Source: Cupriavidus malaysiensis (GTDB taxonomy: Bacteria > Pseudomonadota > Gammaproteobacteria > Burkholderiales > Burkholderiaceae). From it: a DNA stretch of 64,000 nt. Where the stretch lies: NCBI RefSeq assembly GCF_001854325.1, contig NZ_CP017754.1, positions 434,001 through 498,000 on the forward strand. The letters are read 5' to 3'. Shown piece after piece: positions 40,256-54,731 of the stretch. Each line of letters opens with the position of its first letter. Position 1 is the first letter of the stretch. Made by a program: the position numbers and the translations under genes. The notes beneath the pieces are model-generated. The model worked only from the letters and a program-made list of their open reading frames with translations, did no database searches and was not told where the DNA came from.

Positions 40256-40387
40256 CCGGGGGAGAGGGCAGGCGCCCGCCAGCCGCGCAGACCATCGCGC
40301 CACCACCGCCTTGCCCCGTCCACCGCAAACCATGCTTCAATACGCCCCGAACCGTTGTCTTGCGCGCCCGCCGGGGCGCTTGTCGCC

Positions 40388-40729
40388 ATGTCCCTGATCG
40401 ATCTCCGCAACCTCCAGCAAGCCGCCGCCGCTTTCGGCGAGGCGCGTGGCTGGGGCAAGTATCACAGTCCCAAGAACCTGGCCATGGCCTTGTCCGTCGA
40501 GGTGGCCGAGCTGGTCGAGATCTTCCAGTGGCAGACCGAGGACGAATCGCGCGAGGTGATGGCCGGCGCCGAGCGCGAGCATGTGGAGCAGGAGCTGGCC
40601 GACATCACGATCTACCTGGCGCAGCTGGTGACCGCGCTGGGGGTGGACCTGGACGCGGCGGTGCGGGCCAAGATGGAGCGCAACGCGCGCAAATATCCCG
40701 CCCCCGCCCCCGCCCCCGGCGGCGAGTAG
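40388..40729 (+). CDS. MazG-like nucleotide pyrophosphohydrolase
   Basis: A 113-residue all-alpha NTP pyrophosphohydrolase of the RS21-C6/DCTPP1-like branch, which cleans non-canonical nucleotides from the pool. Motifs are LQQAAAAFGEARGWGKYHSPKNLAMALSVEVAELVEIFQW with the ExxE pair, and EQELADITIYLAQLVTALGVDLDAAV with the ExxD pair for magnesium. The tail is Pro/Ala-rich. ATG 40388 is used. It stands alone between the AraC gene and the convergent long operon. Confidence 0.88.
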   Translation: MSLIDLRNLQQAAAAFGEARGWGKYHSPKNLAMALSVEVAELVEIFQWQTEDESREVMAGAEREHVEQELADITIYLAQLVTALGVDLDAAVRAKMERNARKYPAPAPAPGGE

Positions 40730-40759
40730 GCCGGGAGGCGCCGGCCGCGCTCGTGCCTT

Positions 40760-42190
40760 TCAAGCCTCCAGCGCGGCCGCCAGCGCTTCCACCAGCAGGT
40801 CGGCGTGCGCTTCGCCGAACACCAGCGGCGGCCGGATCTTCAGCACGTTGCCGTGCTCGCCGGCGCTGCTGACCAGCACGCCGCGCCGGCGCATGGCATT
40901 GACCACGCGCGCGGCGGCCGCGCCATCCGGCGCGCGCGCGGCATCGGTGCCGAGCAGTTCGACGCCGGTGAACAGGCCCGCTCCGCGCACGTCGCCGATG
41001 GCCGGGTGCAGGCGCGCCAGGTCGTCCAGCCGTGCGCGCAAGTAGGCGCCGACGCGCAGGGCGTTGGCCATCAGTCCTTCTCCTTCGATCACATCCAGCA
41101 CCGCCATGCCGGCCGCCACCGCCACCGGGTTGCCGCCGAAGGTGTTGAAGTAGCGGCACTGGCTGCCGAAGGCGGCCATCACTTCGGGCCGCACCGCCAC
41201 GCCGGCGAGCGGGTGGCCGTTGCCCATCGGCTTGCCCATGGTCACCAGGTCGGGCACCACGCCGTGGCGCAGGAAGCCCCACATCGCTTCGCCGGTACGG
41301 CCCAGGCCGGGCTGCACCTCGTCGGCGATGAAGAGGCCGCCGGCCGCGCGCATGGCGTCGACGGCTTCGGCCAGGAAGCCGGGCGGGTCGGTCAGGATGC
41401 CGTCGCTGGAGAAGACCGTGTCGACCAGCAGGGCGGCGGGACGCAGGCCGCTCGCCTGCAGCTCGGCGATGGCGGCGCGCACGCGGCGCGCGAAGGCCGG
41501 GCCGACCTGCTCCGGCGGCAGGCGCGGATCGGGCGCGGGCACGGTGCGCACATGGCTGCCCAGCCGCACCTGCGTGCCCAGCGAGGGCGAGGCCTCGGCC
41601 AGCGCGGCGGTGACGCCGTGATAGGCGAAGCGGGTGATGACCAGGCCGTTGCCGCCGGTGTGGGCGGCGGCGATGCGCAGCGCCAGGTCGTTGGCTTCGC
41701 TGCCGGTGCAGGTCAGCATCAGGTGGCCGAGCGCGGCCGGCATGGTGCCGAGCAGGCGCTCGGCGTAGTCGAGGATGCCGTCGTGCAGGTAGCGCGTGTG
41801 CGTGTTGAGCGTGGCGGCCTGGCGCGCGATGGCTGCGACCACGTGCGGATGGCAGTGGCCGACCGCGGCGACGTTGTTGTAGGCGTCGAGATAGCGCCGC
41901 CCGTGCGCGTCGACCAGCCACACGCCTTCGCCGCGCACCAGGTGCAGCGGCTCCTGGTAGAACAGCCGGTAGGCGGGGCCGAGCAGGCGCGCGCGGCGCG
42001 CCAGCATGGCCTGCGTCCCGGCCGCTTCGTTGGCTTCGTCGGCTTCGCTGGCTTCGCTGGCTTCGTTGGCTTGGCTTGCTGCGCTTGCGTGGAGAGTTGG
42101 CATGGCTTGCATGGTTTCCGTGGCTCGCTTCGTTTCACCGGACGGTTGCGTCCGCTGTATCCGGACCGGCGCCGCTGGGGCGCCGCTCAT
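40760..42190 (-). CDS. Class III PLP enzyme, phospho-lyase-like (ETNPPL/PHYKPL type)
   Basis: A 476-residue fold-type I PLP enzyme. It resembles the human phospho-lyases for phosphoethanolamine (ETNPPL) and 5-phosphohydroxylysine (PHYKPL) more than ordinary transaminases. Shared blocks are YLDAYNNVAAVGHCHP at 100-115, LNTHTRYLHDGILDYAERL near 128, GSEANDLALR near 163 and the PLP lysine motif TMGKPMGNGHP with Lys320. Such enzymes remove phosphate and ammonia to give an aldehyde. The ATG at 42190 overlaps the kinase stop by 4 nt. The N-terminus has a repeat-rich extension (EASEASEADEANEAAG). Last gene of the operon. Confidence 0.85.
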   Translation of the reverse strand: MSGAPAAPVRIQRTQPSGETKRATETMQAMPTLHASAASQANEASEASEADEANEAAGTQAMLARRARLLGPAYRLFYQEPLHLVRGEGVWLVDAHGRRYLDAYNNVAAVGHCHPHVVAAIARQAATLNTHTRYLHDGILDYAERLLGTMPAALGHLMLTCTGSEANDLALRIAAAHTGGNGLVITRFAYHGVTAALAEASPSLGTQVRLGSHVRTVPAPDPRLPPEQVGPAFARRVRAAIAELQASGLRPAALLVDTVFSSDGILTDPPGFLAEAVDAMRAAGGLFIADEVQPGLGRTGEAMWGFLRHGVVPDLVTMGKPMGNGHPLAGVAVRPEVMAAFGSQCRYFNTFGGNPVAVAAGMAVLDVIEGEGLMANALRVGAYLRARLDDLARLHPAIGDVRGAGLFTGVELLGTDAARAPDGAAAARVVNAMRRRGVLVSSAGEHGNVLKIRPPLVFGEAHADLLVEALAAALEA

Positions 42191-43323
42191 GCCAGCTCGC
42201 AGCGGCGCGCCAGCACGCTGGCCGCCTGGCCCGGGGCGATCGCCGTGCAGGCCTCCAGCCGCTGCCAGGAGATGGCGTTGTTGCGCATCAGGTAGGCCGC
42301 GTTGGCCGGCTCGCGCGCGGCGCGCCAGCCGCTGATGGCCACCACCATCACCAGGCGCGCCTGCAGCAGGTCGAACAGCACCGCGACCTCGTCGGCGGCG
42401 AGCGGCAGCACCTCGTGGTAGGCGCCGACGAAATCGGCCAGCGCGCCCAGCGTGTCGCCCGCGGGGTCGACCTGGTAGGCCGCCGCCACCGCCAGGTCGT
42501 TGACCAGGGGCGCGTGCACCATGTCGCCGAAATCGAGGATGCCGGCGATGCGCGCGTGGTCGGCGGGGTCCACCAGCACGTTGTACAGGTTGAGGTCGTT
42601 GTGGATGGGCTGGCGCCGCAGTGTCGGCAGCAGCGGCTTGACGCGCATGCTGAAGCGGTCGAGCACGCGCAGCGCCATGGCGCGCCGCTGCGGATCCGCC
42701 ACGTGTTCGAGCAGCGCGCGCACTTCGTCGGCGCGCTGGATGTCCCACGGCAGCGCGAGTTCGCCGGCGGGGTGGCGCAGCTCGCGCAGCGCCAGGTCCA
42801 GCCGCGCCAGCGTGCGCGCCAGCGCGCGCGCCTGGGCGGGGCTGCGTGCGGCCTTGGGCAGCGGCTCGCCGTCCAGGTAGCTGAACAGCCGCACCACGCG
42901 CGCGGTGCCGTCGGGCGCGGTGGCCTGCAGCGAGGCGCGCCCGTCGACGGTGGGCTCGATGCGCTGCACCGGCAGCAGCGGGTCGGTGGCGGCGACATGC
43001 AGCAGCGCCTGGGTCTGGAAGTCGGCCACCAGCGCGGACTCCGCCGGGTGCGAGATCTTCAGCATGAAGCGGCGCGCGCGCGTGCCGCCGTGGCCGGCAT
43101 CGGCCTCGAGCAGGAAGTTGCTGTCGCGCTCGCCGCTCAGCACGCTCAGGCGTCCGGTCAGCCCGTAGTGCCAGGCGGCCAGCGTCTGCGCCCATTCGAG
43201 CGGCACCTTGCGCACGGTGTCGCTCAGCACCGCGGTACCGGCCGCCGTGCTTGCCATGCCTGCCGCGCCAGGTGGCCGCGCCGCCGGTCCCGCCGCCTCT
43301 GCCACCTCTGCCCGCGCACTCAT
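42187..43323 (-). CDS. Hydroxylysine-kinase-like phosphotransferase (APH fold)
   Basis: A 378-residue protein-kinase-like small-molecule kinase. The region after residue 40 (AWHYGLTGRLSVLSGERDSNFLLE) resembles human HYKK, the 5-hydroxylysine kinase. The catalytic loop is HNDLNLYN (His241, Asp243, Asn248) and the metal-binding DFG is at 264-266 (ILDFGDM). Directly followed, with a 4-nt overlap, by a phospho-lyase-like enzyme: kinase plus lyase is the known route by which hydroxylysine or ethanolamine is activated and cleaved. It overlaps the upstream deacetylase gene in the same way. The actual substrate is inferred, not proven. Confidence 0.82.
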   Translation of the reverse strand: MSARAEVAEAAGPAARPPGAAGMASTAAGTAVLSDTVRKVPLEWAQTLAAWHYGLTGRLSVLSGERDSNFLLEADAGHGGTRARRFMLKISHPAESALVADFQTQALLHVAATDPLLPVQRIEPTVDGRASLQATAPDGTARVVRLFSYLDGEPLPKAARSPAQARALARTLARLDLALRELRHPAGELALPWDIQRADEVRALLEHVADPQRRAMALRVLDRFSMRVKPLLPTLRRQPIHNDLNLYNVLVDPADHARIAGILDFGDMVHAPLVNDLAVAAAYQVDPAGDTLGALADFVGAYHEVLPLAADEVAVLFDLLQARLVMVVAISGWRAAREPANAAYLMRNNAISWQRLEACTAIAPGQAASVLARRCELA

Positions 43324-44348
43324 GCCGCCCCCTCGAAGCCGCGCAGCGCGCTCGACAGGTTGGGGCCGAGATCGTCGGACAGGTAGCCGCCTTCCTGCAC
43401 CAGCACCGTGGGCAGGCCGAGCCGGGCGATCTCCGCCGTGATGCGGGCGAAGCCCGGCGTGGTCACCGCCAGGGCCTGGTAGGGGTCGCGTTCGTGGGCG
43501 TCGAGCCCGAGCGCCACCACCAGCGCGCCCGGCGCGAAGGCGCGCAGCGTGTCGCAGGCGCCGCGCAGCGCGGCCAGGTAGGCCTCGTCGCCGGTGCCGC
43601 GCGCCAGCGGCAGGTTGAGGTTGTAGCCCAGGCCGTCGCCCTCGCCCTTCTCGTGGGCGTGTCCGGTGAAGAAGGGCGTGAACAGGCGCGGATCGCCGTG
43701 CAGCGAGATGGTCAGCACGTCGGCGCGGCGGTAGAAGATGCCCTGGGTGCCGTTGCCGTGGTGCATGTCGATGTCGAGGATGGCCACGCGGGCGTGCCAC
43801 TGGCGCAGGTGCTGCGCGGCGATGGCGACGTTGTTCAGGTAGCAGAAGCCGTTGGCGCGGTCGACGTAAGCGTGGTGGCCGGGCGGGCGGCACAGCGCGT
43901 AGACGGCGCGCTCGCCGTCGGCGACCAGTTGCGCGGCATGGGTGGCGACCTCGGCCGAGGCGGTGGCCGCGCGCCAGGTGGCGGGCCCGATCGAGCAGGC
44001 CGCGTCGCCCATGTGGTAGCCGGCCTGGCCGACGATGCTGTCGGGGTAGGTGAAGGGCTGGCCGGGGAAGGGGTGGATGTTGGGCAGCACCTCTTCGGAG
44101 GCATCGCCCAGTTCCTGCCAGCGCGCGTACGCCGTTTCCAGGAAGCGCAGGTACTCGGGCGTGTGCACCGCGGCGCGCGGTGCGGCGCCGTAGGCCGCCG
44201 GCGCCACCACGGCGTGGCCGCCGGCCTTCACCGCGGCGAGCAGCCGCTGCGCGCGCTCGGGCTGTTCGTTGCTGCGCTTAAAGCGGCCGCGCACCAGGAA
44301 CTGGCGCGGATCGTGGTCGAGATGCTGGTCGCTGTAGACGACTTTCAT
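43320..44348 (-). CDS. Histone-deacetylase-family amidohydrolase (acetylpolyamine amidohydrolase-like)
   Basis: A 342-residue zinc deacetylase. Catalytic features are RPPGHHA (His158/His159), FCYLNNVAIAAQ, LDIDMHHGNGTQG with zinc ligands at 192-196, and GLDAHERDP with the second Asp ligand. The segment around YPDSIVGQAGYHMGDAACSIG matches bacterial acetylpolyamine amidohydrolases rather than AcuC. It likely removes an acetyl or similar group from an amine substrate before the kinase/lyase steps. Its start overlaps the GntR stop and its stop overlaps the kinase start, each by 4 nt. Confidence 0.85.
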   Translation of the reverse strand: MKVVYSDQHLDHDPRQFLVRGRFKRSNEQPERAQRLLAAVKAGGHAVVAPAAYGAAPRAAVHTPEYLRFLETAYARWQELGDASEEVLPNIHPFPGQPFTYPDSIVGQAGYHMGDAACSIGPATWRAATASAEVATHAAQLVADGERAVYALCRPPGHHAYVDRANGFCYLNNVAIAAQHLRQWHARVAILDIDMHHGNGTQGIFYRRADVLTISLHGDPRLFTPFFTGHAHEKGEGDGLGYNLNLPLARGTGDEAYLAALRGACDTLRAFAPGALVVALGLDAHERDPYQALAVTTPGFARITAEIARLGLPTVLVQEGGYLSDDLGPNLSSALRGFEGAA

Positions 44349-45070
44349 GGGGCGGGCTCCTTGGGGGGGATCGGTGCCGTGCCCTGCTTCTGCATGAACA
44401 CAGCGCGCAAATGGGTGTGTGCATCCTCGATATGGAAGCGCAGGGCGGCGGCCGCGGCCTGCTCGTCGCGCTGCCCGACCGCGCGCGCGATCGGGCGGTG
44501 GGTCTCGGCCACCACGCGCGGATCGGCGTAGACGCGGTCGATCAGCGCCACCACCATGCGGATCTCGGTCTGCATGTTGACGAACACGCGGTGCAGGTAG
44601 GCGTTGCCGGACAGCTCGCACAGGTAGGTGTGGAAGCCCAGGTCGCGCGCCACGCGCTCGGACTGGGGCAGCGAGTCGGCGTCGCGCACCATCTCGTCGA
44701 CCATCTGCATCAGGCGCGCCAGGCCGGCGTCGGAGGCCTGGCGGCAGGCCAGCGACACCGCCATCAGCTCCAGGTTCAGGCGCAGCTGGAACAGGTCGTC
44801 GATCTCGCGCGTGGTGATGGTGCGCACCGCGAAGCCGTGGCGCGGGCGCGCCACCAGCACGCCCTGGCGCTCCAGCCGGCGCGCGGCCTCGCGCACCGGC
44901 GCGCGGCTGACGTTCATGCGGCGCGCGATCTCGGCCTCGACGATGCGGCTGCCGGGCGGCAGGCGGCCCTCCACGATGGCCTGGGTGAGCTGGGCCTCGA
45001 CGGCGGCCACCAGGTCGGACACCTCGATCGAGGAGAAGGCGGGCAGGTCGTCAAGCGTTGCGGTAGACAT
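44345..45070 (-). CDS. GntR-family regulator, FCD (FadR) type
   Basis: A 241-residue regulator. The winged helix-turn-helix reads LTQAIVEGRLPPGSRIVEAEIARRMNVSRAPVREAARRLERQGVL (about 28-72). The helical FCD effector domain follows (EIDDLFQLRLNLELMAVSLACR; GFHTYLCELSGNAYLHRVF; HRPIARAVGQRDEQAAAAALRFHIEDAHTHL), retaining Asp/His metal-site residues. It is embedded in the operon it probably controls. The paired ACTGTCGACAG sites upstream of the first gene are candidate operators. Confidence 0.9.
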   Translation of the reverse strand: MSTATLDDLPAFSSIEVSDLVAAVEAQLTQAIVEGRLPPGSRIVEAEIARRMNVSRAPVREAARRLERQGVLVARPRHGFAVRTITTREIDDLFQLRLNLELMAVSLACRQASDAGLARLMQMVDEMVRDADSLPQSERVARDLGFHTYLCELSGNAYLHRVFVNMQTEIRMVVALIDRVYADPRVVAETHRPIARAVGQRDEQAAAAALRFHIEDAHTHLRAVFMQKQGTAPIPPKEPAP

Positions 45071-45072
45071 CG

Positions 45073-46083
45073 TCAATCCTCTCGGCGCGGTGCCAGCGTG
45101 CTGCGCCAAGCCAGGAAGCCGCCGGATAGCATGATCAGGGCGATGCCCGCGAGCGCGATGGCATCGGGCGGGCGCTGGAAGACGAAGCTGCTGAGGAGCA
45201 CCGCGAGCAGCAGTTGAAAGTAGTTCAGCGGCGCCAGCGTGGCGGCCGCGACGCGGCGGAAGGCCGCCAGCAGCAGCAATTGTGCCGCGCCGCTGCACAG
45301 GCCGCCGGCGAACATCAGCGCCAGCTCGGGCCAGGGCGGCAGCGGCTCGGGCAGCAGCGCCAGCGCCGGCACGCCGGTCAGCACCAGGCAGGCCAGCGCG
45401 GTGGAAGCGTACAGCACCGGCGCCTCCACCTGCGCGGCCAGGCGCCGCGTGAGCAGCTGGAAGACGGCGTAGCAGACCGCCGACACCGCCATCAGCAGCG
45501 TGCCCAGCGCCGGCAGGTCGCTGCCGGGGCGCACGATCAGCAGCATGCCGACGAAGCCGGCCAGCACCGCCACCCACTGCGCCGGCCGCACGCGCTCGCC
45601 GAGCAGCCAGGGCGACAGCGCCACCATGATCAGCGGCGCGGTGAAGTAGATCGCGGTGGCCTCGGCCAGCGGCATCCACAGCAGCGCCGCCATGAAGCAG
45701 GTGGCGACGATGGCCAGCGCGGTGCCGCGCGCCAGCAGCAGCCCCTTGCAGGGAATCGCGCGCAGCGGCGGCATGCCGCTGCGCAGCAGCCAGGCCAGGG
45801 CGATGGCGCTGACGGCCAGGTAGCGCGTCAGGTTCATCAGGGTGGCGGCGTGCGTGCGCAGCATCCATTTGCAGAAGGCGTCGTAGCTGGCGAAGGCCAG
45901 CAGCGCGCAGAAGAACAGCGCGATGCCCCGGCGGCGCCGCGCCGCGGCCTGCGCCGCCGTCAGCGCGGGCGCTGGCGCGGCGGCACCTGCCACGGCACCT
46001 GCCACAGCGCCCGCCACAGCGCCCGCCACAGCGCCCGCCGCCAGCGGGACCGCGCCGCCGTGCAGGCTCGCGTCCGGCTTCAC
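45073..46083 (-). CDS. EamA/DMT-family transporter
   Basis: A 336-residue, ten-helix drug/metabolite transporter with two EamA repeats: IALFFCALLAFASYDAFCKWML, TALAIVATCFMAALLWMPLAEATAIYFTAPLIMVALSPWLLGERV, then AVCYAVFQLLTRRLA and PLNYFQLLLAVLLSSFVFQRPPDAIALAGIALIMLSGG. The start is GTG 46083, forming a GTGA overlap with the aminotransferase stop. The N-terminus carries repeated GAVA units encoded by 12-bp tandem repeats. It may export an amino acid or pathway intermediate. Confidence 0.88.
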   Translation of the reverse strand: MKPDASLHGGAVPLAAGAVAGAVAGAVAGAVAGAAAPAPALTAAQAAARRRRGIALFFCALLAFASYDAFCKWMLRTHAATLMNLTRYLAVSAIALAWLLRSGMPPLRAIPCKGLLLARGTALAIVATCFMAALLWMPLAEATAIYFTAPLIMVALSPWLLGERVRPAQWVAVLAGFVGMLLIVRPGSDLPALGTLLMAVSAVCYAVFQLLTRRLAAQVEAPVLYASTALACLVLTGVPALALLPEPLPPWPELALMFAGGLCSGAAQLLLLAAFRRVAAATLAPLNYFQLLLAVLLSSFVFQRPPDAIALAGIALIMLSGGFLAWRSTLAPRRED

Positions 46084-47498
46084 GCCGTGGCTCCGCTGGC
46101 CGCTGCCTCCCCGGCGAGGGTGGCCTCGAGCCGGTCCAGCGCGCGCCCGAAGCGCGCCAGCATGTCGTCGATCTGCGCGGCAGTGATGATCAGCGGCGGG
46201 CAGAAGGCGATGGCGTCGCCCATGGCGCGCACGATCAGGCCCTCTTCCTGCGCGAGCCGGGCCAGGCGCGCGCCGACCTTGGCGGCCGGCGGGAAGGGCC
46301 GTCCGCTGGCGCGGTCCGCCACCAGCTCCACCGCGCCGATCAGGCCGATGCCGCGCACCTCGCCCACCCAGGGCCGCTGCGCCAGCGCGCGCAGGCCCTG
46401 CTGGAAGCGCGGCGCCACCTCGGCCACGTGCGCCAGGATGTTCTCGTCGGCATAGACGCGCAGCGTCTCCAGCGCCACCGCGGTGGCCACCGGATGGCCC
46501 GAATAGGTGAAGCCGTGGCCGAAGGTGCCGAGGCGCCCGCTGTTGGCGGCGATGGCTTCGTGCACGCGCGCGCTGACCATCACCGCCGAGATCGGCTGGT
46601 AGCCGGAGGACAGTGCCTTGGCGCAGGTGAGGATGTCGGGGCGCAGGCCGAAGGTGGTCGAGCCGAACATGGCGCCGGTGCGGCCGAAGCCGCAGATCAC
46701 CTCGTCGGCGATCAGCAGCACGTCGTGACGGCGCAGCACGGCCTGGATCCTGTCGAAGTAGGTGGCGGGCGGCACGATCACGCCGCCCGCGCCCATCACC
46801 GGCTCGGCGATGAAGGCGCCGACGGTGTCGGGGCCTTCGGCGAGGATGCGCGCCTCCAGCTCCTCGGCCAGGCGCGTGGCGAAGGCTTCCTCGCTCTCGC
46901 CGGGCAGCGCCTCCCGGTAGTGGTGCGGGCAGCCCACGTGCAGGATGCGCGCGATCGGCAGGTCGAAGTCCTGGTGGTTGGCGGGCAGGCCGCTCAGGCT
47001 GGCGGCCGCCACCGTCACGCCGTGGTAGGCGCGCCGGCGCGCGATGATCTTCTTCTTGGCCGGGCGGCCGCTCGCGTTGTGGTAGTACCAGACCAGCTTG
47101 ACGGCGCTGTCGTTGGCCTCCGAGCCGGAGTTGGCGAAGAACACCTTGGACATCGGCACCGGCGCCAGCGCCAGCAGCGCCTGCGCCAGTTCGATGGCGG
47201 CGGGGTTCGAGCGGTGGTTGAAGGTGTGGTAGTAGGGCAGCGTGCGCAGCGCGCGCACGCCGGCCTCGATCACGCGCGCGTGGCTGAAGCCGAGCGCGCT
47301 GCACCACAGCCCGGACATGCCCTCCAGGTAGCGCCGGCCCTGGTCGTCTTCGACGAAGATGCCGTCGCCGCGCGTGATCACCAGCGGGCCCACCTCGGGA
47401 TGCGCCGCCAGGTTGGTGAAGGGATGCAGGTGGGCGGCGATGTCGCCGGCGGCGAGGCTGGCATGCCGGTCGGCAAGTCGGTCGGGGGCGGTGTCCAT
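46080..47498 (-). CDS. Class III aminotransferase, omega-amino acid:pyruvate type
   Basis: A 472-residue PLP transaminase. Landmarks are YLEGMSGLWCSALGFSHARVIEAG, LPYYHTFNHRSNP, VFFANSGSEANDSAVKLVWYY, the YHGVTVAAASLSGLP motif, DEVICGFGRTG and the PLP lysine in TCAKALSSGYQPISAVMV. These fit omega-amino acid/putrescine-type transaminases acting with pyruvate. ATG 47498 is preceded by AAGGAG; the longer frame to 47525 overlaps that site. It probably deaminates a terminal amine of the imported compound or passes amino groups onward. Confidence 0.9.
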   Translation of the reverse strand: MDTAPDRLADRHASLAAGDIAAHLHPFTNLAAHPEVGPLVITRGDGIFVEDDQGRRYLEGMSGLWCSALGFSHARVIEAGVRALRTLPYYHTFNHRSNPAAIELAQALLALAPVPMSKVFFANSGSEANDSAVKLVWYYHNASGRPAKKKIIARRRAYHGVTVAAASLSGLPANHQDFDLPIARILHVGCPHHYREALPGESEEAFATRLAEELEARILAEGPDTVGAFIAEPVMGAGGVIVPPATYFDRIQAVLRRHDVLLIADEVICGFGRTGAMFGSTTFGLRPDILTCAKALSSGYQPISAVMVSARVHEAIAANSGRLGTFGHGFTYSGHPVATAVALETLRVYADENILAHVAEVAPRFQQGLRALAQRPWVGEVRGIGLIGAVELVADRASGRPFPPAAKVGARLARLAQEEGLIVRAMGDAIAFCPPLIITAAQIDDMLARFGRALDRLEATLAGEAAASGATA

Positions 47499-47588
47499 GC
47501 TGGCGGGTCTCCTTGTGGTTGGCATCGCGGATCGTGATCGGTGGTCGTCAGGCGTTACTCGTCAGGACTCAGTCGTCGCAGGCCGCCA

Positions 47589-48617
47589 TCAATAGCCTTG
47601 CGCCGGGTCGACCGCGGCCGGCGGGCGCAGGCCGCGGCGCGCCAGCGCGAGGTTGTCCAGCGTCTGGCGCGCGATGACGGCGGCATCGGTGCGCGTGGCC
47701 ACGTGCGGCGTGACGACGATGCGCGGGTGATGCCAGAACGGATGGCCGGCCGGCAGCGGTTCCTGCACGAAGGCGTCCAGCGTGGCGGCGCCGAGCTGGC
47801 CCGTGGCGAGCGCGGCCAGCAGGGCGTCCTCGTCCAGGTGGGCGCCGCGCCCGACATTGACCACGTGCGCGCCGCGCGGCAGCCGTGCGAACACCTCGGC
47901 GCAGAGGAAGCCGCGCGTCTGCTCGGTCAGCGGCAGCAGGCACACCAGGGTGTCGCAGCCGGACAGGAAGGCGTCCAGGCCGGCGGCGCCGTGGAAGCAC
48001 TCGACCTGCGCCGGCGCTGCCGGCCGCGGCGTGCGGCTCCAGCCGCGCACCGCATAGCCCAGCGCCAGCAGCGCGCGCGCGCAGGCTTCGCCGAGCGTGC
48101 CGAGGCCGGCGATGCCGACGCGATGGCGCGCCGGCGGCACGATGGGCTCTTCCTGCCAGCGGCCGGCGGCGGCGCTGGCGAGGTAGGCGTCCATGGCGCG
48201 CTGGCGGTGGATCACCGCCCAGGCCACATAGGCGGCCATGCCGCCGGCCATGGTGGGGTCGACGATGCGGCACAGCAGCGGCGCGCGCCGCGCCTCCCCG
48301 GCGGGCAGGTGGTCGATGCCGGCGGCCAGGGACTGCACCAGGCGCAGGCGCGGCAGCGTGGCCAGCAGGCCCGGCGGCGGATACCAGCACACCGCCGCGT
48401 CGATGCGCTCGGGCGCGCCGAGCGCGTCGGCGTAGCGCAGTTCGGTGCCGGGGCAGGCCGCTTCGAAGGCGGGCGCCAGGTAGCGCATGTCGAGCACGCT
48501 GCTGAGCAGGGCGATGACCGGCGGCGCGGCGTCGCGCGGCGCGTCGGGCGCCTCGGGCGCCTCGGGCGCGGCGGCGAGGTTCGCGGAGGCCAGCGGGGAT
48601 GCGATGGCGCCGTTCAT
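47589..48617 (-). CDS. D-2-hydroxyacid dehydrogenase (GhrA-like)
   Basis: A 342-residue NAD(P)-dependent 2-hydroxyacid dehydrogenase. An N-terminal Ala/Pro repeat (APEAPEAPDAP) precedes the catalytic domain. The Rossmann motif is VGIAGLGTLGEACARALLALG near 165; LLPLTEQTRGFL, NVGRGAHLDEDALLAAL and DAFVQEPLPAGHPFWHHPRIVVTPH supply the Arg/Glu/His active-site pattern of glyoxylate/hydroxypyruvate reductase A. ATG 48617 overlaps the ATPase stop by 4 nt. It may reduce a 2-oxo acid made by the pathway. Confidence 0.88.
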   Translation of the reverse strand: MNGAIASPLASANLAAAPEAPEAPDAPRDAAPPVIALLSSVLDMRYLAPAFEAACPGTELRYADALGAPERIDAAVCWYPPPGLLATLPRLRLVQSLAAGIDHLPAGEARRAPLLCRIVDPTMAGGMAAYVAWAVIHRQRAMDAYLASAAAGRWQEEPIVPPARHRVGIAGLGTLGEACARALLALGYAVRGWSRTPRPAAPAQVECFHGAAGLDAFLSGCDTLVCLLPLTEQTRGFLCAEVFARLPRGAHVVNVGRGAHLDEDALLAALATGQLGAATLDAFVQEPLPAGHPFWHHPRIVVTPHVATRTDAAVIARQTLDNLALARRGLRPPAAVDPAQGY

Positions 48618-50284
48618 GCCGCGGCCCTCTCGCGGTACGGCGCGCCGTCCGCCCGCCCGGACGGCGGCGGCTCGGGCGCCGGGCGCGCCAGGCGCGGGAT
48701 GGCCTCGATCAGGCGGCGCGTATAGGCATGCTGCGGATCGCCCAGCACGCGCGCGGTCTCGCCATACTCGACCATCTCGCCGCGCTGCATGACCGCGATG
48801 TGGTCGCACATCTGCGCCGCCACGCGCAGGTCGTGGGTGATGAAGACCATGGCGAGCTGGAACTGCTCGCGCACCTGGGCGAACAGTTCCAGCACCTGCG
48901 CCTGCACCGAGACGTCGAGCGCGGACACCGGCTCGTCGGCGATCAGCAGCGCCGGGCGCATGGCCAGCGCGCGCGCGATGCCGATGCGCTGGCGCTGCCC
49001 GCCGGAGAATTCGTGCGGATAGCGTTCGGCGGCCTCGGGGCCGAGGCCGACCAGGCCCAGCAGTTCGACCGCGCGCGCGAGTGCCTGCTCGCGCGGCACG
49101 CCCTGGGCGATCGGGCCGGCGGCGATGGCGGCGCCGATGCGATGGCGCGGATTGAGCGAGGCGTAGGGATCCTGGAACACCATCTGGATCTGCCCGGCGG
49201 CATGCCGCGGCACGCTGCCGCCGGCCGCCAGGGTGCGGCCGTTGACCACCACGCGTCCGCCGTTGAAGGGGGCCAGCCCGGCGATGCAGCGGCCCACGGT
49301 GGACTTGCCCGAGCCCGATTCGCCGACCAGGCCGAGGGTCTGGCCGCGCCACAGCTCGAAGCTGATGTCGCGCGCGGCCTGCACCTCGCGGCCGCGCTGC
49401 AGCAACCCGCCGCCGGAGCGGTAGGTCTTGCACAGGTCCTGCACCTGCAGCACGCGGTTGGCGTCGTCGGCGCGCGGCGCCGGCGCGCGTGCCTCGCCGC
49501 CGGGGATGGCGGCGATCAGGCGGCGCGTGTACTCGTGCTGCGGGGCGCGCAGCACGCGCGCGGCGGGGCCGCGCTCGACGATGCTGCCGGTCTGCATCAC
49601 CACCACCTCGTCGGCGATCTCGGAGACCACGCCGAAGTCGTGGGTGATGAACAGCACCGCGGTGCCGCGCCGCTGCTGCAGCTCGCGCACCAGCTTGAGG
49701 ATCTGCGCCTGGGTGGTGACGTCGAGCGCGGTGGTCGGCTCGTCGGCGATCAGCAGGCGCGGCTCCAGCACCATCGCGCTGGCGATCATCACGCGCTGGC
49801 GCTGGCCGCCCGACAGGCGGAAGGGATAGCTGTCGCAGAGCGCCGCCGGATCGGGCAGGCCGACGTCGGCGAGCGCGGCGAGGATGCGCCGGCGCTTCTC
49901 GGCGGCGGGCAGGCGCTGGTGCGCGTCGAACACCTCGGCGATCTGGTCGCCGATGCGCATGACAGGGTTGAGGGCGGTCATCGGCTCCTGGAACACCATG
50001 CCGAGGCGCTGGCCGCGCAGCGCGCGCAGCGCGGGCTCGGGCAGCGCCAGCAGGTCCTGGCCTTCGAACAGGATGCGCCCGGCCACCGGTTCCACGTGCG
50101 GGCGCGGCAGCAGGCCCATCACCGCGTTGGCGATCATCGACTTGCCGGAGCCGGATTCGCCCACCACGCACAGGGTCTGGCCGGCCTGCAGCGTCAGCGA
50201 GGCCTCGCGCACCGCCAGCGCGCGGTCGCCGCCGGCGGGCAGGCGGATGCTCAGGCCCTGGATATCGAGCACGGGTGCGTTCAT
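48614..50284 (-). CDS. Fused double ATPase of a peptide-type ABC importer (DppDF-like)
   Basis: A 556-residue protein with two complete ATPase domains. Domain 1: Walker A GESGSGKS near 42, Q-loop [11 protein letters not shown], signature LSGGQRQRV, Walker [13 protein letters not shown]. Domain 2: GESGSGKST near 320, [31 protein letters not shown]. Each ends with the oligopeptide-specific tail pattern ([16 protein letters not shown]). Fusion of the DppD and DppF homologues is common in proteobacteria (YejF/GsiA style). It powers the adjacent permeases. Confidence 0.93.
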
Positions 50285-51123
50285 CGTCCTCTCCCGCCCA
50301 GGCGCGTGTTGAGCGCGTCGTTGAGTCCTTCGCCGACCATGTTCAGCGCCAGCACCGTCAGCACGATGGCGGTGCCGGGGAACACTGCCATCCACCAGGC
50401 CTGGCGCAGCACCGTGCGCGCCTGGCCGACCATATAGCCCCAGCTCATGTGGTTGGGATCGCCCAGGCCCATGAAGCTCAGGCTGGATTCCAGCAGGATG
50501 GCGGTCGCCACCATCAGCGAGGCCATCACCACGATGGGCGAAGTGGCGTTGGGCAGGATCTGCGTGAGGATGATGCGCGGCGTCGATTCGCCGGCCAGGC
50601 GCGCGGCGGCGACGAAGTCGCGCTGGCGCAGGGTCAGGAACTCGCTGCGCACCAGGCGCGCCACCGGCGGCCAGGAGACCACCGCGATGGCCGTCACGAT
50701 GGAGGCGATGGAGGGCTCGAAGATGGCCACCAGCACCAGCGCCAGCGCGAAGCTGGGCACGGCCTGGAACAGCTCGGTGAAGCGCATCAGCGCGGCATCG
50801 ACCCAGCCGCCGAAGTAGCCCGACAGCGCCCCCAGCGTGACGCCGATGGCCAGCGAGACCACGGTGGAGACCAGCCCGATCAGCAGCGAGATGCGCGCGC
50901 CGTGGATCACGCCGGACAGGATGTCGCGCCCCATGGTGTCGGTGCCGAGCGCGAAGCCCGGCTGCTGCAGCGGATGCAGGAAGGGCTGCTGCGCCATCTC
51001 CCACGGATCGTTGCCGGCCAGCCAGGGACCGAACAGCGCCAGCACGGCCACCGCCGCCAGCACGGCGAGGCCCAGCAGCGCGGCCTTGTTGCGGCAGAAG
51101 CGCCGCCAGAATGTGTGGTTCAT
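50281..51123 (-). CDS. Peptide-type ABC importer permease (DppC-like)
   Basis: A 280-residue inner-membrane subunit. The N-terminal helix reads KAALLGLAVLAAVAVLALFGPWLAG, the conserved loop HPLQQPGFALGTDTMGRDILSGVIHGARISL, and the EAA motif region FVAAARLAGESTPRIILTQILPN. The helix VMASLMVATAILLESSLSFMGLGDPNHMSWG is diagnostic of DppC/OppC. The ATG overlaps the stop of the downstream-lying partner by 4 nt on both sides, so stoichiometric production is expected. Confidence 0.93.
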   Translation of the reverse strand: MNHTFWRRFCRNKAALLGLAVLAAVAVLALFGPWLAGNDPWEMAQQPFLHPLQQPGFALGTDTMGRDILSGVIHGARISLLIGLVSTVVSLAIGVTLGALSGYFGGWVDAALMRFTELFQAVPSFALALVLVAIFEPSIASIVTAIAVVSWPPVARLVRSEFLTLRQRDFVAAARLAGESTPRIILTQILPNATSPIVVMASLMVATAILLESSLSFMGLGDPNHMSWGYMVGQARTVLRQAWWMAVFPGTAIVLTVLALNMVGEGLNDALNTRLGGRGR

Positions 51124-52094
51124 TTCAGTTCAATCCTCGGGTCGACCAGGGTGTAGACGAAGTCGGTGACGAAGTTGAAGGCCACGGCCATGGCGGCGGT
51201 CACCAGGAAGCAGCCCAGCAGCAGGTTGTAGTCGCGCTGCAGCAGCGCATCGAACATCAGGCGGCCGATGCCGGGCCAGGCGAACACGGTCTCGGTCAGC
51301 ACCGCGCCGCCGATCATGCCGCCGGCCTGGATGCCGGCCAGCGTGACCACCGGCAGCAGCGCGTTGCGCAGGATGTGGGCGCGCTGGATGCGGCCCGGAT
51401 GCAGGCCCTTGGCACGCGCCGTCTTGACGAAGTCCATCTGCGCCACCTCCAGCATCGAGGCGCGCGTCATGCGGGCGTAGACCGCCATGTAGAACAGCGC
51501 CAGCGTCAGCGCCGGCAGCACCAGGTGCTGGCCGATGTCGAGCGCGCGCGCCACGCCGTGCAGGTCGGCGCCGACGGTGGCGTAGCCGAAGCCCGGCAGC
51601 CAGTCGAAGCGCACCGAGCACAGCAGCACCGCCATCATCGCCAGCCAGTACAGCGGCGTGGCGTAGAACAGCAGCGACAGCACCGTGATGGCGCTGTCGA
51701 CCCAGGTGCCGGCGCGACGGCTGGCCAGCGCGCCCAGCACCACGCCGAACAGCAGCGACAGCGCGAAGGCGGTGCCGGTCAGCAGCAGGGTGGCGGGCAG
51801 GCGCTCGACGATCAGGTCCAGCACCGGCCGCTGCTGCCGGTAGGAGAAGCCCAGGTCGAGCTGCGCCACGTGCACCAGGTACTTGCCGAGCTGCTGCGGC
51901 AGCGGCTGGTCGAGGCCGAACTGCGTGCGCAGCTGGGCCACGAACTGGGCGTCGGAGGCGCCCGATTCGCCGGCCATCACCGAGACCGGGTCGCCTGGCG
52001 CGGCACGGATCAGCAGGAAGTTGACGGTGGCGATGATGAGGATGGCGAGCACGCCCTGGATCAGGCGGCCCACGAGGCGTTGCGTGCGTTGCAT
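51120..52094 (-). CDS. Peptide-type ABC importer permease (DppB-like)
   Basis: A 324-residue inner-membrane subunit. It begins with the DppB/OppB first helix (LIQGVLAILIIATVNFLLIRAAPGDP), followed by the periplasmic loop with QLRTQFGLDQPLPQQLGKYL and LDLGFSYRQQRPV. It then has LLFYATPLYWLAMMAVLL, the EAA-like MDFVKTARAKGLHPGRIQRAHILRNALLP, and a closing VLTETVFAWPGIGRLMFDALLQRDYNLLLG. Pairs with the DppC-like permease and binding protein. Confidence 0.93.
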   Translation of the reverse strand: MQRTQRLVGRLIQGVLAILIIATVNFLLIRAAPGDPVSVMAGESGASDAQFVAQLRTQFGLDQPLPQQLGKYLVHVAQLDLGFSYRQQRPVLDLIVERLPATLLLTGTAFALSLLFGVVLGALASRRAGTWVDSAITVLSLLFYATPLYWLAMMAVLLCSVRFDWLPGFGYATVGADLHGVARALDIGQHLVLPALTLALFYMAVYARMTRASMLEVAQMDFVKTARAKGLHPGRIQRAHILRNALLPVVTLAGIQAGGMIGGAVLTETVFAWPGIGRLMFDALLQRDYNLLLGCFLVTAAMAVAFNFVTDFVYTLVDPRIELK

Positions 52095-52122
52095 GGCGTC
52101 GCTCCCGCGTACGGTGCCGGCC

Positions 52123-53688
52123 TCAGGCCAGCCAGGCCCGGCCCAGGCTGTCGTTGAGGCCGATGCCGGAGCTGATCAGGTTGTTGACGCGGCTGCGGTA
52201 CAGGGTGGGGAAGTTGAGCTCGTGCATCCACACCACCGGCATCTCGTCGAGCAGGATCTTCTGCACCTGCTGGTAGATGGCGCCGCGCCTGGCGGGGTCC
52301 ATCTCGCGCGCGCCGGCATGGAACAGCTCGTCGACCTTGGCGTTGCGGTAGCCCTCCACGTTGTTGAAGGGCGAGCCCTGGGCGATGTTGTCCGAGGTGT
52401 AGTTGCGCGCCACGCCCAGCGCCGGATCGCCGTACTGGTAGACGTAGGTGAAGGCGAGGTCGTAGTCCCACTTGTTGAGGCGCTCGCCCCAGCCGGCCAC
52501 GTCGGTGGGCGTCATCTCGATCTTGATGCCGGCCTGCTGCAGGTTCTGCCGCACCATCTCGGCCGAGCGCTGCCAGGTCTCGCCGTAGGGCAGCGGCAGC
52601 AGGCGCAGGGTCTCGCCCTTGTAGCCGGACTCGGCCAGCAGCTGCTTGGCGCGCGCGAGGTCGCGCGGGTACTTGGCCACGTCGGTGCTGTAGAACTTGA
52701 TGTGGCTGTTGAAGGGGCCGGTGGCGGTCTTGGCGAAGCCCTGCCAGGCCACGCGCGCGATGGCGTCGCGGTCGATGGCGAAGGCCAGCGCCTGGCGGAA
52801 CTTGATGTTGTCCATCGGCGCCTTGCGGTGGTTGACCCACAGCCACGAGTGCGGCGCGAAGAATTCCCAGCCCTTGGTGCTGACCTGCACGCCCGGCAGC
52901 TTGGCCAGCCGCGCCACGTCGAAGTACTCGACCGCGCCGCCCGGCACCACGTCGACCTTGCCCGACTCGAAGGCGGCGGCGCGCGCGGCGGCGTCGGGGA
53001 TCACGTGGAAGTAGACGCTGTCGACCAGCGGCACGTCGGCCTGGTGGTACTGCTCATTGCGCACCAGCTGGATGTAGGAGCCGCGCACCCACTCCTTGAA
53101 CTTGAACGGGCCGGTGCCGATCGGCCTGGCGTTGGCCGGGTTGTTGAGGAAATCGGTGCCCTCGTAGAGGTGCTTGGGCACCATCGGCATCGAGCCCACT
53201 TCGAAGATGCCGAGGAAGGGGCTGAAGGGGTACTTCAGCTTGAACTCGACGGTGAGCGGGTCGAGCGCGCGGATGCTCTCCACCGCCGCCAGGTTGGCGC
53301 GCAGGCGCGCATGGGTCTTGCGCAGGAACACGTCGGCGGAGAACACCACGTCGGCGGCGGTGAAGGGCTTGCCGTCGTGCCAGGTGACGTTGGGCTTGAG
53401 CTTGAAGGTGTAGACCGTGCCGTTGCCGCCCACGGTCCAGGAGGTGGCCAGCGCCGGCAGCGGCTCGAGCTTGTCGTCGTAGCGCAGCAGGCCCTCGTAG
53501 ATGTTGCCGGAGATGAGCTGGGTGGGGCCGTTCTGCGTGATGCCGATCATCAGCCCGGAAGGCTCCGGCTGCACCAGCGCGTTGATGATGCCGCCTTTCT
53601 TGCCGGCGGCCAGGACGTGGAGGGGAATGCCTGCGATCGACAGGCCGCTGGTGGCGGCGCCCAGCTTGAGCAGTTGGCGGCGGTTCAT
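52123..53688 (-). CDS. Peptide-type ABC importer binding protein
   Basis: A 521-residue periplasmic SBP_bac_5 protein. The N-terminus MNRRQLLKLGAATSGLSIAG has a twin-arginine-like RRQLLK motif, suggesting Tat export, and cleavage near HVLAAG. Family features are LVQPEPSGLMIGI, YEGLLRYDDKLEPLPALATSWTV, VTWHDGKPFTAADVVFS, the PIGTGPFKFKEW loop and FRQALAFAIDRDAIA near residue 300. Such proteins bind peptides, opines or other amino compounds; the surrounding amine/amino acid enzymes suggest a modified amino acid or small peptide. Confidence 0.92.
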   Translation of the reverse strand: MNRRQLLKLGAATSGLSIAGIPLHVLAAGKKGGIINALVQPEPSGLMIGITQNGPTQLISGNIYEGLLRYDDKLEPLPALATSWTVGGNGTVYTFKLKPNVTWHDGKPFTAADVVFSADVFLRKTHARLRANLAAVESIRALDPLTVEFKLKYPFSPFLGIFEVGSMPMVPKHLYEGTDFLNNPANARPIGTGPFKFKEWVRGSYIQLVRNEQYHQADVPLVDSVYFHVIPDAAARAAAFESGKVDVVPGGAVEYFDVARLAKLPGVQVSTKGWEFFAPHSWLWVNHRKAPMDNIKFRQALAFAIDRDAIARVAWQGFAKTATGPFNSHIKFYSTDVAKYPRDLARAKQLLAESGYKGETLRLLPLPYGETWQRSAEMVRQNLQQAGIKIEMTPTDVAGWGERLNKWDYDLAFTYVYQYGDPALGVARNYTSDNIAQGSPFNNVEGYRNAKVDELFHAGAREMDPARRGAIYQQVQKILLDEMPVVWMHELNFPTLYRSRVNNLISSGIGLNDSLGRAWLA

Positions 53689-53777
53689 GGCGTGACTCTC
53701 CTAGGGGGCTGAGGATGGGGACGATGCGGAACAAGCGCCGCGGCGCGCCCGGATGCTGGCGGGCGCCGCGCGGGGTC

Positions 53778-53816
53778 AGGCGTGATCAAGCGTGATCAAG
53801 CGTGATCAAGCGTGGT
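53778..53816. repeat. 10-bp tandem repeat spanning a stop codon
   Basis: Four units of GTGATCAAGC (last unit GTGGT) lie at the 3' end of the aldolase-like gene. The last copy carries its TGA, so copy changes would leave the protein intact or extend spacing to the binding-protein gene. Confidence 0.75.
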
Positions 53817-54603
53817 AGGGCACCGGGGCGGCCGGCTCCAGGCGTTGCAGCAGCGCGCGCCATTCGCGCGCGTACGGGTCGGCGCTGCCGGCCAGGCGGT
53901 TGCTGTCGCCGCTCTCGTACTGCCGCGCGGTCTTCTCGCGGATCGCTTCCGGCACCGCGTAGACCGCTTCGCCGCTGGACTGGACGGCGAGCTGCACGCG
54001 GCAGGCGCGCTCCAGGTTGTGCATCAGGATGAAGGCCTCGGCGACGCTGCGGCCCAGCGTCAGCAGGCCGTGGTTGCGCAGGATCATGGCGCGCGCGGAG
54101 GGGCCGAGGTCGGCCACCAGGCGCTCGCGCTCGTCGTGGTCCAGCGCGATGCCTTCGAAGTCGTGGTAGACCACGCGGTCGTGGAACTGCAGCGCCCACT
54201 GGTTGCACGGCTGCAGGCCGCAGGCCAGCGAGGACACCGCCACGCCGGCCACCGTGTGGGTGTGCAGCACGCACAGGGCGTCGGGGCGTGCCGCGTGCAC
54301 CGCGCTGTGGATGGTGAAGCCGGCCGGGTTGACGTCCTGCCCGGGCGCGCCGTCGACGATGTTGCCGTCGAGGTCGATGCACACCAGCGAGGAGGCGGTG
54401 ATGTCGCGGAACAGGGTGCCGAAGGGGTTGATCAGGAAGCGGTCGTGCGTGCCGGGCACGCGCGCGGAGATATGCGTGTAGATGCTGTCGTCCATGCCGT
54501 AGTGCGCGACCAGCCGGTAGGCGGCGGCGAGGTCGGCGCGGACCTGCTGCTCGGCGTCGGAGCGGGGGGAGCGCGGGGTGGCGGTGGCGAGTTGGATGCC
54601 CAT
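53806..54603 (-). CDS. Class II aldolase/adducin-family protein
   Basis: A 265-residue member of the family that includes fuculose-phosphate aldolase and epimerases. Motifs: DLAAAYRLVAHYGMDDSIYTHISARVPG with the substrate-loop Ser/His, LINPFGTLFRDITASSLVCIDLDG, VLHTHTVAGVAVSS with two zinc-site His residues, and MILRNHGLLTLG with the third His. It is the first gene of the twelve-gene operon. It may cleave or decarboxylate an intermediate; the exact reaction is not evident. The ATG is 54603; the longer frame crosses the promoter. Confidence 0.88.
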   Translation of the reverse strand: MGIQLATATPRSPRSDAEQQVRADLAAAYRLVAHYGMDDSIYTHISARVPGTHDRFLINPFGTLFRDITASSLVCIDLDGNIVDGAPGQDVNPAGFTIHSAVHAARPDALCVLHTHTVAGVAVSSLACGLQPCNQWALQFHDRVVYHDFEGIALDHDERERLVADLGPSARAMILRNHGLLTLGRSVAEAFILMHNLERACRVQLAVQSSGEAVYAVPEAIREKTARQYESGDSNRLAGSADPYAREWRALLQRLEPAAPVPYHA

Positions 54604-54673: not shown

Positions 54674-54731
54674 GTCAACTGTCGACAGGATGATTCAAGA
54701 CGCTCTGAGCCGAATCGTCAACTGTCGACAG
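54674..54731 (-). promoter_or_regulatory. Paired 15-bp operator sites upstream of the twelve-gene operon
   Basis: The 15-mer GTCAACTGTCGACAG occurs at 54674-54688 and again identically at 54717-54731, 43 bp apart (about four helical turns). Each contains the perfect 10-bp palindrome CTGTCGACAG. They begin 71 bp upstream of the first gene. Symmetry, spacing and a FadR-type GntR gene inside the operon make them strong operator candidates. Confidence 0.65.

Follow-up and report, generated by a model that had tools for sequence, protein, structure and literature searches.

A conserved twelve-gene operon of Cupriavidus malaysiensis with a putative deacylation, phosphorylation and elimination route and a presumed GntR operator

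The region analyzed here is a 64-kb window of the Cupriavidus malaysiensis genome (7.95 Mb in three contigs; the window is C1:434001-498000), in which twelve genes follow each other on the minus strand, from the ATG of g1 at 54603 to the stop codon of g12 at 40760. We consider them a probable substrate-inducible catabolic operon. According to Pfam and NCBIfam families, the genes encode, in order, a class II aldolase/adducin family protein (g1, 53806..54603, PRK07044), an SBP_bac_5 solute-binding protein (g2, 52123..53688), a DppB-type permease (g3, 51120..52094) and an OppC/DppC-type permease (g4, 50281..51123), both BPD_transp_1, a fused double ATP-binding cassette (ABC) ATPase of the oligopeptide type (g5, 48614..50284), a GhrA-like 2-hydroxyacid dehydrogenase (g6, 47589..48617), a class III transaminase (g7, 46080..47525; PRK06105, 743 bits against a cut-off of 517), an EamA/DMT transporter (g8, 45073..46083), a GntR-FCD regulator presumed to bind the operator (g9, 44345..45070), a deacylase of the histone deacetylase (HDAC) fold (g10, 43320..44348, Hist_deacetyl), an APH-fold kinase (g11, 42187..43323) and a class III pyridoxal phosphate (PLP) enzyme of the phospholyase lineage (g12, 40760..42190). 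The Dpp/Opp-type importer is complete within the operon, with the SBP_bac_5 protein, two permeases and two ATPase domains; the best solved relative of g2 in a PDB search, 5isu, scored only 163 bits and gave no ligand lead. A first-pass annotation of the same DNA had already described a twelve-gene operon from 40760 to 54603 containing an amino-compound importer, a transaminase and a dehydrogenase, and our analysis agrees with it down to the coordinates.

The same annotation counted eight overlaps of 4 nt, taking the genes as one unit. Seven of them are firm (g3/g4, g4/g5, g5/g6, g7/g8, g9/g10, g10/g11 and g11/g12), while the eighth, g8/g9, exists only if g9 starts at the alternative TTG at 45076, the ATG at 45070 leaving a gap of 2 nt; start codons were our choice among the in-frame starts. 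The other junctions have gaps of 117 nt (g1/g2), 28 nt (g2/g3) and 63 nt (g6/g7). The reading as one unit is supported. Kinase and lyase, previously said to be "directly fused by overlap", do overlap by 4 nt but are separate genes in this genome, with no fusion. A scan for promoters and terminators found nothing.

The operon is real and widely conserved among soil bacteria. A profile scan of genome contigs with the kinase alignment gave 98 relatives, 80 of which were kept and, with the plasmid locus L005, make 81 loci (L and G numbers are our own for loci and genomes). Most of the 80 come from Burkholderiales, and the operon recurs in Cupriavidus, Variovorax, other Comamonadaceae and Alcaligenaceae and, rearranged, in Salinicola. 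It should be noted that the rows are not independent, some contigs being duplicated (L089-L097 and L108 duplicate stretches of L141-L150, and L087 is the gene of the window itself), that gene presence depends on identity thresholds chosen by us, and that g1 and g2 are under-counted because the fetched flanks stop about 10 kb upstream. The lyase lies at most 500 nt from the kinase, on the same strand, in 79 of the 81 loci, the exceptions being L068 and, at a contig end, L040. A g10-type HDAC was found in 61/81 and was on the strand of the kinase in all 61. Where at least 9 kb of upstream DNA was available (56 HDAC loci), the ABC ATPase, the GhrA-like gene and the GntR gene were each present in 53, the transaminase and the EamA gene in 45 each, a second HDAC gene ("HDACb") in 34, a gene of the short-chain dehydrogenase/reductase (SDR) family in 17 and an M20 hydrolase in 3. 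Six loci, five from Cupriavidus and one from a "Burkholderiaceae bacterium" (L007-L011 and L051), showed no HDACb. Within the family of the window's organism the kinase is patchy, since any match was obtained in 21 of 150 genomes, and one above 100 bits in 11, the window's genome being included in both counts.

Two further gene types accompany these loci. An SDR-family gene (at least 50% identity) lies near HDAC, kinase and lyase in 19 loci, for example L029:7454-8341 and L063:12409-13125. In 13 comamonad loci it immediately precedes the HDAC gene, and in six Salinicola loci it immediately follows that of the lyase; because of this recurring adjacency it is linked to the trio, though absent from the window. 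A survey of downstream partners revealed mostly genus-level synteny, apart from the SDR in 12 loci of that clustering. In 13 loci an ArgE/DapE-type deacylase gene, a possible third amidohydrolase, is found downstream of the lyase within about 3 kb, on either strand, and is 46-49% identical to the copy of an Azospirillum cluster (L017, L021, L033, L044, L045, L047-L049, L052-L054, L057 and L058).

Just upstream of g1 there are two copies of the palindrome CTGTCGACAG, to which no strand is assigned: a proximal one at 54679..54688 and a distal one at 54722..54731, the latter within CTGTCGACAGTTGAC. No other copy exists in the window; 100 shuffles had a mean of 0.07 copies, and none had two. In the whole genome exact copies are 6, against 2 for a reversed control pattern. 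The other four were considered as members of a regulon and rejected, since all lie inside predicted open reading frames (ORFs, called mechanically); one of these precedes another HDAC gene by about 1.4 kb. We restricted the analysis to exact sites, because a 14-mer, when two mismatches were allowed, matched the genome 21 times and its reversed control 13 times. We then considered 17 fetched loci, in 16 of which the aldolase gene was found (the stretch of L220 is without it). The palindrome or a close variant occurs within 100 nt upstream of the aldolase start in 15 of these 16; it is missing only from the Azospirillum locus L006, in whose cluster no GntR gene was seen. In the 15 loci (205.8 kb) the extended element is confined to this position, with 18 overlapping pattern hits at 15 sites. 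The Salinicola variant is TGTCGACAGT, beside a second half-site; in the Salinicola loci with a different GntR, ATGATGCATCAT is found instead upstream of the HDAC (L063 and L073), or its 10-base core (L080). For 11 of the 15 positive loci the presence of the GntR gene in the same genome was confirmed directly; it is assumed for L217, L218, L219 and L221. As regulator and element come and go together, g9 would be the protein that binds it.

The genes g11 and g12, which had been described as a HYKK-like kinase and an ETNPPL/PHYKPL-like PLP enzyme, match the two halves of PRK06148, a fusion family of NCBIfam, in agreement with that description. The kinase covers profile positions 7-342 with 293 bits (the cut-off, 1128, applies to the complete fusion and is out of reach for a half) and the lyase positions 573-1009. 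The kinase residues K89, H241-N-D243, N248 and D264-F-G-D are invariant in 10/10 aligned sequences. Single-chain PRK06148 proteins above the family cut-off occur in 7 of 299 genomes of the phylum. Among our loci, L082 and L085 encode kinase and lyase together in a single frame of about 790 residues; L047 also reads in one frame and may be a true fusion. An apparent fusion of HDAC and kinase in L033 was discarded, because the frame leaves the HDAC before its end and looks like a frame error.

The first-pass annotation would have given up its reading if the PLP enzyme grouped with ordinary transaminases; PDB scores, genome scores, a tree and motifs were all checked, and this did not occur. The best PDB matches of g12 are two phospholyases (414 and 344 bits), followed by a racemase with 185, and lyase-half scores in 100 related genomes fall in two blocks, at least 467 bits or at most 224. 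The motifs NNV, GKP, FNTFGGNP and K.RPP are present in 63/63 operon rows, window included. The structure 5g4i shares K.RPP, NNV and GKP and has FNTF.GNP, while 6tor, which also has GKP and carries FNTYGGNP, differs only by conservative letters; neither the racemase nor g7 holds these motifs. In a tree made by a quick method with 23 of the 63 operon rows, all 44 other rows and two outgroup rows, the operon lyases group with 5g4i and 6tor, the racemase and the transaminase staying outside (branch 99, starred), although the program issued a warning that 6tor and the outgroup have long branches that meet. The operon clade, with moderate support (85, unstarred), has 26 rows: the 23 from operons and three for which no HDAC was seen, two of them with too little upstream DNA (L019 and L065) and one, L031, which with 5.9 kb upstream seems truly HDAC-free. 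By its sequence, then, g12 belongs to the phospholyase lineage and is not an ordinary transaminase.

Since the closest solved relatives of g12 are phospholyases, one of them named ethanolamine-phosphate phospho-lyase, the substrate could be N-acylethanolamine, ethanolamine or 1-amino-2-propanol, degraded via the O-phosphate. An oligopeptide-type importer, a transaminase, a reductase and an aldolase exceed the needs of so small a molecule, and Arg75 and Arg346, which we would guess to line the lyase pocket, are found in 63/63 operon rows, while 5g4i has Pro and Met and 6tor Lys and Glu at these positions, so that we consider a substrate of this kind quite improbable. The two arginines are also present in 35 and 41, respectively, of the 44 HDAC-free pairs.

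Several Burkholderiaceae (L132-L134 and L141-L150) carry a second, paralogous kinase-lyase pair without HDAC. These pairs adjoin MocR-type regulators, SBP_bac_8 binding proteins and transport genes or others, and from such varied neighbors the kinase-lyase pair seems a reusable module for several hydroxy-amines.

The deacylase g10 precedes this pair, as had been annotated, and its HDAC fold was confirmed; its nearest solved relatives are proteins called acetylpolyamine amidohydrolases (best five, 325 to 267 bits). In the numbering of the Mycoplana enzyme, and counting 67 g10-type rows that include duplicates and the window's own copy, the equivalents of H158, H159, D195, H197 and D284 are kept in 67/67 and that of Y323 in 66/67, so zinc ligands and catalytic residues are in place. 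In the accessible parts of the two papers, E106 (PMC11532494) and E117 (PMC5454378) of the Mycoplana enzyme are assigned to polyamine recognition, but g10-type rows have V in 66/67 at the first position and A in 66/67 at the second (V106 and A117 in the window). The L1 loop is basic, with R20 in 67/67, K or R at 24 in 64/67 and R25 in 66/67, and the gatekeeper Ile291 is replaced by Tyr in 66/67. At each altered site the odd row carries the letters of 3men, whose loop is also partly basic (Arg20, Arg22 and Arg24). According to the part of PMC5454378 that is accessible, gatekeepers are acidic for cationic substrates and basic for anionic ones; the Tyr of g10 is neutral, neither one nor the other. 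The lost acids and the basic loop suggest an anionic substrate such as an amino acid, the loop being the stronger point. The assignment of g10 as a polyamine deacetylase by default was rejected on account of the missing acids and the basic loop.

A typical polyamine of betaproteobacteria is 2-hydroxyputrescine, and the same chemistry applied to it, or to its N-acyl derivatives, would yield 4-aminobutanal and then gamma-aminobutyrate. This option would fit the prevalence of Burkholderiales among the kept loci, the class III transaminase of the operon and the polyamine names borne by the relatives of g10. Nevertheless, with the Mycoplana polyamine-holding acids missing in 66-67 of 67 g10-type sequences, and with a basic loop, it appears very unlikely.

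The candidate favored by the first-pass annotation was 5-hydroxylysine, free or acylated and derived from collagen. Its deacylation, O-phosphorylation and lysis would give 2-aminoadipate semialdehyde. The animal hydroxylysine kinase and phosphohydroxylysine lyase are the same kinds of enzyme pair as g11 and g12, the kinase having reportedly been identified in a 2012 paper. This likeness of family speaks for hydroxylysine, as do the names "hydroxylysine kinase" given to some close kinase homologues in the source databases (uncurated), and the charge pattern of the HDAC would fit an amino acid, without singling out this one. On the other hand HglS, a 2-oxoadipate enzyme, shows only an 87-bit partial match in the present genome, against more than 500 bits for the full-length matches elsewhere. 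The full-length enzyme is absent here and from the operon-bearing G163 and G165, is present in the operon-bearing G107 and G157, and occurs without a phospholyase-type match in G002, G089, G155 and G164. Because HglS, one of several possible downstream routes, does not track the operon among congeners, the candidate is weakened, though not excluded. The paralogous pairs with their quite different neighbors also count against it, and in Pseudomonas fluorescens, as far as the accessible part of the source describes it, 5-hydroxylysine is converted by other enzymes, those of the lysine monooxygenase and racemase pathways (PMC12930750). We regard hydroxylysine as an unlikely substrate, and for an origin from collagen we found no support. 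A hydroxyectoine route was also considered and set aside, since hydroxyectoine degradation requires a ring-opening hydrolase that the operon lacks.

From gene order, families, conserved catalytic residues, the phospholyase lineage and operator conservation we infer the single reactions, their order, repression and the class of substrate. The Dpp/Opp-type importer would bring in an acylated (or peptidyl) amino compound; g10 would deacylate it in the cytoplasm, freeing a primary amine next to a hydroxyl-bearing carbon; g11 would phosphorylate that hydroxyl, and g12 would eliminate phosphate and ammonia to leave an aldehyde. Another part of the molecule, or the carbonyl products, could be processed by the transaminase g7, the GhrA-like reductase g6 and the class II aldolase g1; g9 would act on the two CTGTCGACAG palindromes to control the operon, most likely by repression. 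The N-acyl substrate may carry a negative charge, and because the charge pattern of the HDAC suggests a carboxylate, an N-acyl hydroxy-amino acid is favored over a polyamine or plain ethanolamine. To a catabolic operon of this kind, inducible by its substrate and working by deacylation, phosphorylation and elimination under CTGTCGACAG control, we assign a probability of about 0.62. The chemical order, from N-acyl amine to free amine, O-phosphate and finally aldehyde, ammonia and phosphate, had been predicted in the first-pass annotation and is plausible.

Several observations weigh against this reading. No aldehyde dehydrogenase was recognized among the twelve genes with Pfam and NCBIfam, and g7, g6 and g1 have no role in the three steps themselves. 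No g10-type HDAC was seen in 20 of the 81 loci; 12 of these have 10 kb of upstream DNA and are mostly from Alphaproteobacteria, with the betaproteobacterial L041 (kinase 58% identical) among them, and therefore deacylation by a g10-type HDAC is not a fixed partner. The structures 3men and 9gkz, both named for polyamines, are also without the two acids (9gkz has His and Gly). We take 9gkz to be the PsApaH of PMC11532494. PsApaH is described, in the accessible part of that paper, as a more promiscuous acetylpolyamine deacetylase (PMC11532494), and because it lacks both acids and still deacetylates polyamines, their absence alone proves little; the basic loop, for its part, could serve dimer contacts instead of substrate binding. 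Finally, the binding of g9 to the palindromes is presumed solely from co-occurrence, and a cluster in Azospirillum has aldolase, importer, HDAC and EamA genes without kinase or lyase.

The Azospirillum cluster and the unexplained g7, g6 and g1 raise the possibility that two separable pathways share the operon. One block (a) would comprise importer, aldolase and reductase, with HDACb and the M20 hydrolase, and the other (b) HDAC, kinase and lyase, with the SDR; independent of each other on one transcript, both would act on parts of one plant or microbial compound. The arrangement in other genomes is consistent with this, since in Schauerella/Achromobacter (L024 and L027) and in four Salinicola loci (L069, L075, L077 and L079) the operon is split in two divergent halves, with aldolase, importer and reductase on one side and GntR, HDAC, kinase and lyase on the other. 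Moreover Azospirillum has block (a) only, and the Salinicola loci L063, L073 and L080 keep block (b), with the other palindrome and, on the opposite strand, a GntR gene of another kind (about 30% identical), and no close importer homologue nearby (in L080 there is a distant one, 26-38% identical). However, the window and many relatives have all the genes in one string, and where the blocks diverge they lie on either side of a single, common operator. We consider the two-pathway arrangement possible, without giving it preference over the single deacylation, phosphorylation and elimination scheme.

The chemistry of that scheme matches the animal hydroxylysine and ethanolamine-phosphate pathways and the bacterial 5g4i, where an APH-fold kinase likewise goes with a class III phospholyase; the likeness of motifs comes from 5g4i and 6tor and that of the kinase from PRK06148. 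What differs is the setting: in comparison with animal HYKK, PHYKPL and ETNPPL, the operon adds an importer, an HDAC-fold deacylase, a transaminase, a reductase, an aldolase and its own regulator and operator. The acetylpolyamine amidohydrolases (Mycoplana 3q9b, 6phr and 9gkz) share with g10 the fold, the zinc ligands and the catalytic His and Tyr, and g10 is unlike the Mycoplana enzyme in lacking acids 106 and 117 (absent also in 3men and 9gkz), in the gatekeeper, Tyr for Ile, and in the basic loop. Another class III enzyme turned lyase on a β-hydroxy-amine is the (R)-1-hydroxy-2-aminoethylphosphonate ammonia-lyase PbfA, which differs from the scheme for g12 in having no kinase and a phosphonate substrate, as the accessible part of PMC8154272 describes it; the NCBIfam PbfA model gives 175 bits on g12, against a cut-off of 525.

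In the PRK06148/PRK06149 fusions, to whose N- and C-terminal parts g11 and g12 correspond, a middle segment lies between kinase and lyase; here it is absent, and a separate HDAC-fold amidase is found upstream instead. The middle segment of the fusion L171:8211-11285 keeps, by eye, HxGxD and HxH, presumably the zinc pattern of M23 metallopeptidases, and the fusion L177:7032-9965 has lost it. As a lead, the fusions with their M23-like metal amidase and the present operon with its HDAC-fold amidase may have solved the same deacylation step in two ways.

In the literature searched, in which subscription journals were thinly covered, we found no account of such an operon, and the accessible portions of a P. 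putida fitness paper (PMC10949508) and of a P. aeruginosa paper on acetylpolyamine amidohydrolase (PMC4784309) contain nothing on it. It is conceivable, and we propose it tentatively, that the operon represents an undescribed route with its own operator, in which an HDAC-family enzyme of reversed charge preference would be dedicated to the catabolic deacylation of an anionic N-acyl β-hydroxyamine, while in PRK06148 fusions the M23-like amidase may deacylate. The operon places bacterial HYKK/ETNPPL-type pairs in a defined genetic setting that has a regulator and an operator of its own, and screening N-acyl hydroxyamines for induction of the operon could lead to the orphan substrate. Default annotation as acetylpolyamine amidohydrolases is inadvisable for HDAC-family genes in operons of this type.

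Some minor features surround the operon. About 0.5 kb upstream, on the same strand, there are ABC-ATPase and SBP_bac_3 frames, apparently a separate amino-acid importer. At the 3' end, a MazG-like open frame recognized by eye (window 40384-40730, plus strand) converges on the operon; a longer, different frame tested nearby was without a Pfam match. The N-terminus of the EamA transporter g8 contains a repetitive Ala-Gly-Val tract, AGAVAGAVAGAVAGA (window 45980-46045), perhaps a mis-set start. On the minus strand, CTTGATCACG occurs in three tandem copies at window 53781-53810, the first of which overlaps the stop codon of the aldolase gene.

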